A DNA stretch of 64,000 nucleotides, taken from NCBI RefSeq assembly GCF_020552705.1, contig NZ_JAJBZG010000001.1:1-64000 (forward strand), given 5' to 3'. The stretch is from Christiangramia sediminis. Its GTDB lineage: Bacteria; Bacteroidota; Bacteroidia; Flavobacteriales; Flavobacteriaceae. Within the stretch, counting starts at the first letter, position 1. Each line of letters begins with the position of its first letter. Under the pieces are notes generated by a model. The model saw only the letters and a program-made list of their open reading frames with translations. It was not told the origin of the DNA and did no database searches. Positions 6,134-9,352 of this stretch are shown in pieces. The position numbers were made by a program, and so were the translations under genes.

Positions 6134-8443
<2,310 letters not shown>

Positions 8444-8506
8444 TTACGGCTTTTATCCTAAGTTTAAAGGCCTTCTCACTTGTTAAGATATCTTAAATAA
8501 TGAAAT

Positions 8507-8658
8507 AAAAAAGCCATTTCATCTTAATTGCTAAAATGAAATGGCTTCAGGAAACAGCATATTATCAGTTTAATGATAAAAAGCATTTTATGCTTATTGG
8601 GTATGCTGCTTCATTTGATTCGAATTTAAAGGATTTAAAAAGAATCAAATTAGTCTTT
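8507..8658 (-). ncRNA. Candidate structured small RNA of unknown class
   Basis: Read on the minus strand, three folded units follow one another. (1) A hairpin with an 8-bp base (TTTGATTC at 8642-8649 with GAATCAAA at 8614-8621), a small internal loop and a 6-bp TTTAAA/TTTAAA top. (2) A three-way junction closed by CAGCATA/TATGCTG (8602-8608 with 8555-8561) that holds two perfect 6-bp hairpins. (3) A 12-bp terminator stem (8536-8547 with 8511-8522) followed by six T. The 5' end is a guess, based on a weak TGCGTTTG (-7-like) at 8665-8672. No protein gene on this strand could own the terminator. I cannot assign an RNA family. Confidence 0.5.
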
Positions 8659-8880
8659 ATCTTTCAAACGCATTTTGATAGTACAAAATATAAGTTGTTA
8701 TATAGAAGATAAAAACATTAAAATGTAAAGAACTTGCTTTACGGGAAAATCGTCCAGACTAAAAATCCTATTGTCATTTTAATCGCTACGAATTTCTATA
8801 TAAATATAATTAAAAAGCTTTTTTACAAGAAGGTATTTAACAATAAAAAAGGTTTTTTCACAGATTAGAACCCAACAAAA
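8659..8880. other. Gene-free spacer between the candidate RNA and the rplS terminator
   Basis: This is AT-rich sequence with no tRNA, no credible coding frame and no clear repeat. A TATATTTTG stretch on the minus strand (8684-8692) resembles a -7 element with one extra base. It might serve the candidate RNA. Confidence 0.5.
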
Positions 8881-8904
8881 AAAGCCCCAACAATGTGGGG
8901 CTTT
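8881..8904 (-). terminator. Terminator of rplS
   Basis: AAAGCCCCA and TGGGGCTTT form a 9-bp stem around a six-base loop, followed on the minus strand by a run of T. It lies 24 bases after the rplS stop. Confidence 0.88.
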
Positions 8905-8928
8905 ATATTAATTCGGTATAAAGAATTA

Positions 8929-9282
8929 TTATTTTCTAATCGCTTCTTTAATACGTGCTTTCTTACCGGTAAGACCTCTAAAGTAGAAAATTCTCGCTCT
9001 ACGAACATTACCTTTCTTATTGATCTCAATTTTCTGAATAGCAGGAAGGTTGATTGGGAAAATTCTTTCCACTCCTACCGTACCACTCATTTTTCTAATG
9101 GTGAAAGTTTGAGAAGAACCTGTTCCTCTTTTCTGAATAACAACACCTCTAAAGAACTGGGTTCTTGTCTTTTGTCCCTCTTTAATTTCGTAATAAACAG
9201 TGATAGTATCACCTGCTGCAAACTCAGGTAGATCTTTTCTGTCTACGAATTCGTCCTGAACGTATTTTACTAAGGATTCCAT
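8929..9282 (-). CDS. rplS: 50S ribosomal protein L19
   Basis: L19 is a 50S subunit protein at the 30S-50S interface. The 117-residue length is normal. Conserved stretches are present, including FAAGDTITVYYEI, RTQFFRGVVIQKRGTG, TFTIRKMSGTVGVERIFPI and GNVRRARIFYFRGLTGKKAR. In many bacteria rplS follows trmD in the rpsP-rimM-trmD-rplS operon. Here trmD lies upstream on the same strand, 118 bases away, but rpsP and rimM are absent and a full -7 promoter element lies in the gap. So rplS has, at least in part, its own transcript with a leader of roughly 65 bases, where feedback control could act. Confidence 0.98.
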   Translation of the reverse strand: MESLVKYVQDEFVDRKDLPEFAAGDTITVYYEIKEGQKTRTQFFRGVVIQKRGTGSSQTFTIRKMSGTVGVERIFPINLPAIQKIEINKKGNVRRARIFYFRGLTGKKARIKEAIRK

Positions 9283-9352
9283 TTTTAATGTTTTAAAGTA
9301 TGATCTATAACAACATTCACGGTTATCGCCAGAGGTTATTCTAGAATGAGTG

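Follow-up and report, generated by a model that had tools for sequence, protein, structure and literature searches.

A candidate independent structured RNA gene between rplS and icd in Christiangramia sediminis and other Flavobacteriaceae

The region between rplS and icd of Christiangramia sediminis very probably holds an independent gene for a structured RNA. We analysed a window of 64,000 nucleotides (positions 1 to 64,000 of contig NZ_JAJBZG010000001.1), in which the minus strand carries, in order, trmD, rplS with its stop near 8929 and its terminator at 8904-8881, the RNA, and icd with its start at 8362. The structure of the RNA, its covariation, strand, promoter box, terminator, address, distribution and absence from Rfam 15 were all established by sequence comparison. 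It covers 8507-8796 on the minus strand, is predicted to be transcribed as one RNA of approximately 290 nt, and is present as one copy in its own genome. The 5' end near 8796 was predicted by placing the promoter box at -12 to -5, the sigma-A spacing given in the main text of a Flavobacterium psychrophilum study (PMC9723704). A previous sequence-only reading had proposed an independent minus-strand RNA of about 150 bases at 8507..8658, which it could not place in a known family. These positions make up the 3' half of a larger predicted non-coding RNA gene. Independence and the lack of a catalogued family were borne out, the former by covariation and a G-U bias between the strands, by a terminator and a conserved promoter box, and by conservation across the family; the length was too short, as conservation and structure run upstream to about 8796.

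The RNA occurs in four sequence types, here labelled 1 (Christiangramia and near genera), 2, 3 (~400 nt) and 4 (~500 nt), the labels being our own. Its parts and its surroundings in C. sediminis are as follows.

8825..8831, minus strand: possible -33 element, proposed from sequence, containing TTG at 8829-8827, 18 nt ahead of the -7 box; conservation of this TTG does not extend across the genus.
8801..8808, minus strand: -7 promoter box TATATTTA (TAnnTTTG-like); TAnnTT[TA][AG] stands at the same alignment column in 23/23 genus genomes.
8507..8796, minus strand: the RNA, ~290 nt with a predicted 5' end, delimited by fold z-score, covariation and the box position taken from the main text of PMC9723704.
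8745..8796, minus strand: P1, the 5' hairpin, with a loop region ATGACAAaAGGAT that is well conserved within the genus (alignment, covariation).
8723..8744, minus strand: P2, hairpin GTAAAG-CAAGTT-CTTTAC, whose 3' side GTTCTTTA recurs in types 2-4 (alignments, covariation).
8652..8717, minus strand: P3, a long-range helix of 8717-8705 with 8665-8652; inside it lie TATATAACA, a further hairpin at 8689-8672 and GTTT.
8616..8647, minus strand: P4, the first hairpin of the sequence-only reading, with double changes in 12/14 pairs.
8550..8614, minus strand: P5, a three-way junction that includes the hairpins P5a (8596-8580) and P5b (8578-8563); double changes in 9/12 pairs of the outer helix.
8507..8549, minus strand: P6, intrinsic terminator AAGCCATTTCA..TGAAATGGCTTTTTT, placed from the covariation alignment and from a sequence pattern described below.
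8881..8904, minus strand: rplS terminator, a boundary outside the RNA.
8430..8437, minus strand: TATATTGC, the promoter box of icd, which lies downstream of P6 and is likewise a boundary outside the RNA.

The earlier claim that this DNA folds was upheld. The 176-nt stretch 8495-8670 folded with -49.7 kcal/mol, compared to -24.4 +/- 3.6 kcal/mol for dinucleotide shuffles (z = -7.0; 0/200 shuffles), and the plus strand of the same stretch gave z = -5.1. For the entire RNA the values were z = -7.9 (0/200 shuffles) on the minus strand and z = -3.7 on the plus strand. The hairpin (8647-8616), three-way junction (8614-8550) and terminator hairpin (8549-8509) were all present on the minus strand where they had been placed, with six T at 8512-8507 following the terminator hairpin. 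The terminator itself had been described as a 12-bp helix, which understated it; 17-18 pairs were found. The separate rplS terminator at 8881-8904 (minus strand) was confirmed as well.

Upstream regions of 23 Christiangramia genomes were aligned, and conservation extended from a TAnnTTTA box through the T-run. RNAalifold recovered neither P3 nor P4 from whole alignments, and consensus structures were therefore obtained from summed single-sequence pair probabilities. Over the 23 genus sequences these gave hairpins P1 and P2, the P3 long-range helix with its inner domain, P4, the P5 junction and P6. In this genus alignment 85.7% of cells paired (95.8% in the main helix of P3), 57 of the 106 pairs were changed on both sides compared to a shuffled mean of 31.9, and cells changed on both sides numbered 150 against a shuffled mean of 64.1 (0/500 shuffles). 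The covariation score was 0.217, versus 0.132 for shuffles and 0.056-0.088 when partners were slid by 1-3 columns. P6 is almost invariant in the genus; it therefore contributes no covariation there, and the genus alignment says little about its structure.

P5 and P6 were assessed in two further alignments. Among 25 type-3 sequences, 15/45 pairs covaried, with 60 double-changed cells versus a shuffled mean of 17.5 and a score of 0.243; among 21 type-2 and Gillisia-like sequences, 22/47 pairs covaried, with 77 double-changed cells versus 20.9 in shuffles and a score of 0.300. None of 500 shuffles equalled the cell counts or scores in either set, and 3/500 did so for pair types in the type-3 set. 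When partners were slid by 1-3 columns, the covariation score dropped to 0.092 or less in all three alignments. Covariation scoring of column pairs in a type-3 alignment placed many of the top pairs in the P4/P5 region, with unrelated pairs (e.g. columns 30/394) also scoring high, and we therefore draw no support for additional contacts from it. The sequence-only reading had staked its proposal beforehand on related genomes conserving the paired arms, and the outcome favours an RNA. An ordinary terminator alone was ruled out by the covariation of P1-P5.

G-U cells outnumbered A-C cells in the three alignments (235:50, 114:12 and 61:8), which points to the minus strand as the RNA strand, with part of the excess built in since the structures were predicted by minus-strand folding, which favours G-U. 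The scarcity of A-C cells also bears on whether the locus encodes a protein. A coding or dual-function transcript would carry a short peptide in P1 (ATG ACA AAA GGA ...) or face an opposite-strand protein (ORF 8536-8712, plus strand), and we regard either as hardly credible. By eye, an ATG lies at the P1 loop in 17/23 genus genomes, but the P1 frames stop at differing places and 3/23 genomes have no NTG start of any kind. The opposite-strand ORF, 21-64 codons in length, begins in P6 in 18/23 genus genomes, yet in most genomes its frame is broken by stops and shifts of frame, and it lacks third-position bias (variability 0.220, 0.222 and 0.195 by codon position). ORFs of at least 20 codons on the RNA strand were found in 11/23 genus genomes, at scattered positions. 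Coding was thus rejected for both strands on scattered or disrupted frames and the absence of codon-position bias. Separately, the P1 loop ATGACAAaAGGAT (8764-8785, minus strand) was seen to resemble a Bacteroidetes start region (M-T-K-G-F), with varying frame lengths.

Covarying structure on one strand, together with a predicted promoter and terminator of its own, is part of what is generally looked for in an independent structured non-coding RNA, and these features were found here by sequence. Over 129 loci, a regular expression for the -33/-7 regions, which is poorly anchored, matched 66, versus 12.5% of shuffles. The terminator had been said to point the wrong way to serve icd. This is correct in that it cannot end icd's own transcript; it does, however, point towards icd, which lies downstream on the minus strand. 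As icd is thus downstream on the same strand as the RNA, a leader or attenuator role, which the sequence-only reading had not weighed, needed testing.

In such a role the RNA would be a cis-acting 5' leader of icd, with an aptamer-like fold and a terminator controlling read-through into the gene, an arrangement that we consider improbable. It would account for the P6 terminator sitting ahead of icd and for icd being directly downstream on the same strand in most loci, at a distance from P6 of mostly 50-350 nt, but a separate icd promoter box was found beyond the P6 terminator in 23/23 genus genomes. Such a box was present in 155 of 163 distinct icd upstream regions from all loci (27.5% in shuffles), and six loci that lack the RNA (L225, L230, L233, L234, L235, L250) keep a TAnnTTTG box before icd. 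Moreover, icd was not the next gene in 12 of 180 distinct loci with P6, a set defined by the P6 pattern in which one member (L218) is doubtful. A same-strand ORF of 182-235 codons separated the RNA from icd in eight loci (L048, L089, L128, L129, L132, L192, L210, L219), and no icd was found within 1.1-1.5 kb of the RNA in four others (L059, L063, L077, L260). The gene following the RNA, named by eye, was an ABC-transporter ATPase gene in L077 and a TonB-receptor-like gene in L059 (read in the longer L079 stretch). No conserved antiterminator pairing was seen by eye in the genus alignment. With an icd leader or riboswitch, the regulated gene would lie directly downstream and have no separate promoter; by sequence, neither expectation was borne out, and judged on these features the RNA is probably not an icd leader.

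Several observations were made on the icd side of the RNA. The 190-codon ORF between P6 and icd in L089, L128, L129, L192, L210 and L219 has repeated N-C-x-F-like motifs that appeared pentapeptide-like by eye. The icd promoter box reads TATATTGC or TATATTTG; the former (8430-8437, minus strand) fits the SM5 motif (TAnnTTGY) as given in the main text of PMC9723704, while distant genera have TAnnTTTG, and the promoter class of icd may have changed in Christiangramia. At 8399-8416 (minus strand) the icd 5' UTR also contains CCCTGG..CCGGGG, a small G+C hairpin with TTTTC after it; by eye, its two arms covary in a number of genus genomes (for example CCCTG/CAGGG), and it could be an icd attenuator.

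The distribution of the RNA was examined by several routes. With 8960-8350 as the query, it was found in 23/24 Christiangramia genomes, the sole miss (G020) being a genome that is 67% complete. Covariance models matched 46/395 family genomes and 29/203 genera (R1, built on the whole RNA), 118/395 family genomes at E <= 1e-5 (R2) and 2/296 class genomes, each of them a family member (R3), and these counts are lower bounds since large model searches filter strictly and miss divergent types. All 46 R1 match places were inspected: 42 adjoin rplS and/or icd, and four (L064, L066, L073, L078) were left out as ordinary terminators that have the same GCCATTTCA..TGAAATGGC arms but lack the RNA. As these arms also occur in ordinary terminators elsewhere in the family, the arms alone are not diagnostic; the loop-spaced pattern was. 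Sequence was retrieved for twenty R2 matches and one R3 match; 21/21 adjoin rplS and/or icd, and 18 have the P6 pattern. Two weak R2 matches, L244 (E 3e-4) and L249 (E 3e-3), were opposite-strand or low-scoring and were left uncounted.

When the named genomes of 84,980 species were scanned with the loop-spaced P6 pattern, at least 117 stretches matched. Among the matches listed, all 117 lay at the rplS/icd locus on the coding strand, next to both genes (86), icd (25) or rplS (6). Genera among these listed matches include Christiangramia, Salegentibacter, Gillisia, Maribacter, Arenibacter and Zobellia, as well as Cellulophaga, Aquimarina, Psychroserpens, Kordia and Leeuwenhoekiella. Despite altered sequence, types 1-4 retain the order P2, long-range P3, P5 and P6; the P3 domain is larger in types 3 and 4, and the architecture of P5 is the same in types 2 and 3.

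A sample that did not depend on any model was taken by looking for rplS in one genome from each of 31 genera of the family, which returned 30 loci. The RNA followed rplS in 25/30 sampled genera, own genome included: 24 with the P6 pattern and one (L215) with a worn pattern that was also matched by model R2 (E 6e-6), with L218 not counted. Four of the 30 loci (L222, L224, L225, L226) had no RNA after rplS, so that with at least 4/30 sampled genera lacking it there, the RNA is dispensable for some lineages. Across the order, a further 29 loci were read. One of the eight from the family (L232) has the RNA; of the 21 from other families, 19 had a readable flank and all of these lacked it. A large genus (g112), presumed to be Flavobacterium, was represented by five genomes, and in each of them rplS was followed by no such RNA. 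Genus g116 was mixed, with the RNA present in L232 and absent in L230, which suggests loss. In L082 and L116 the RNA is separated from rplS by ORFs of 472 and 466 codons, respectively.

Taken as a trans-acting RNA whose fold does the work, which we think is the probable reading, the gene would operate as follows. The minus strand would be transcribed from its own sigma-A-type promoter just past the rplS terminator, and the transcript would end at its own intrinsic terminator P6, ahead of the separate icd promoter. The stable folded RNA would then work in trans through its shape, namely the P3 domain and the P5 junction, which would probably be protein-bound or self-assembled, with neither a short antisense seed nor a switch on icd. 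Preference for the fold over a seed rests on architecture. The chief rival is antisense action, in which a conserved single-stranded seed pairs with mRNAs in trans, as in the model presented for Rfp18 of F. psychrophilum in the main text of PMC9723704; we rate it as unlikely. An independent gene with a terminator would also suit an antisense sRNA, and the genus conserves unpaired stretches, namely TATATAACA and GTTT within P3 and GACAAAAGGA within the P1 loop, but these are altered or missing in types 2-4. As the stretches differ across types, no seed common to the family can be seen; the one possible exception, GTTCTTTA of P2, is for the most part paired. The large size and heavy structure of the RNA also count against an antisense seed.

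The P2 loop often has a self-complementary core in three of the types: AACGTT in 15/16 type-4 rows, ACGT in 11/12 type-3 rows and TAACGTT in 13/14 type-2 rows. AACGTT was found in the P2 loop of 0/23 Christiangramia genomes. The self-complementary P2 loops of types 2-4 could possibly form a kissing loop. More speculatively, and with rather less confidence than in trans action as such, we suggest that the RNA may represent an uncatalogued class of 290-500 nt characteristic of Flavobacteriaceae, which would date back to the ancestor of most of the family and have disappeared from some genera. It would form either a specific particle with protein or a self-assembled complex of RNA joined by kissing loops, and would serve in housekeeping or in a growth state, much as OLE RNA is comparable in kind.

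If transcribed as predicted, this RNA gene, so far uncatalogued, would be carried by most of the genera sampled in a major family of marine bacteria, and few large structured RNAs are kept over such distances. Its function is testable by deletion, since it has a single copy at a constant address, occurs in genera that can be cultured (Christiangramia, Maribacter, Zobellia, Cellulophaga) and shows natural loss in sister lineages.

Known RNA families were searched with the 4227 models of Rfam 15, a library that includes models of OLE, GOLLD and ROOL. In the window and 16 relatives, no family matched the RNA at the gathering threshold, and only tRNA and the L19 leader were detected there. With relaxed E-values over 8300-9000 of the window, the best match on the RNA was PyrR (E = 0.27, 25.8 bits versus 54); L046 and L058 likewise had no Rfam match on the RNA at relaxed E-values, and in 14 relatives at E <= 0.01 only the L19 leader and one Flavo-1 appeared, both outside the RNA. 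Taken together, the relatives searched represent all four types. The search covered 6S-type models and, like the sequence-only reading, assigned the locus to no family. Three housekeeping RNAs were each rejected for lack of a match at the locus and have their copies elsewhere in the genome: 6S RNA (RF01685 6S-Flavo; C2:931181-931298, 96 bits), RNase P RNA (RF00010; C2:874383-874695, 220 bits) and tmRNA (RF00023; C3:596656-597055, 125 bits). The L19-Flavobacteria ribosomal leader (RF03130) was observed ahead of rplS at 9311-9338 on the minus strand (41.6 bits). We found no description of the RNA in the open-access main-text literature searched, nor in the text consulted from PMC9723704, PMC2864571, PMC7247131 or PMC12286853.

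Among RNAs of the same neighbourhood or phylum, the L19-Flavobacteria leader shares the locus but is a 29-nt motif before rplS (9338-9311) rather than after it. Flavo-1 (RF01705) is, like our RNA, independent and found in Bacteroidetes, with one copy near rplS in L208; it differs in being a 76-position model that matches upstream of rplS (L208:1257-1346, 54.8 bits). 6S-Flavo is likewise structured, independent and from the same phylum, but resides at a separate genome locus. Rfp18 and the other Rfp sRNAs of F. psychrophilum are structured, conserved and intergenic RNAs of the same family, a likeness drawn from their description in the main text of PMC9723704 and not from sequence or position. 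Parallels in kind are the large 'ornate' bacterial RNAs OLE, GOLLD and ROOL, which are also independent, long, multi-helix and lineage-restricted, and whose biochemical function is open according to PMC12286853. They belong to other lineages and have no Rfam match with our RNA, which at about half the size of OLE (~600 nt) is the smaller molecule. As an RNA family it is new, with no relative found, and belongs to a known kind, that of independent structured RNAs of unknown function.
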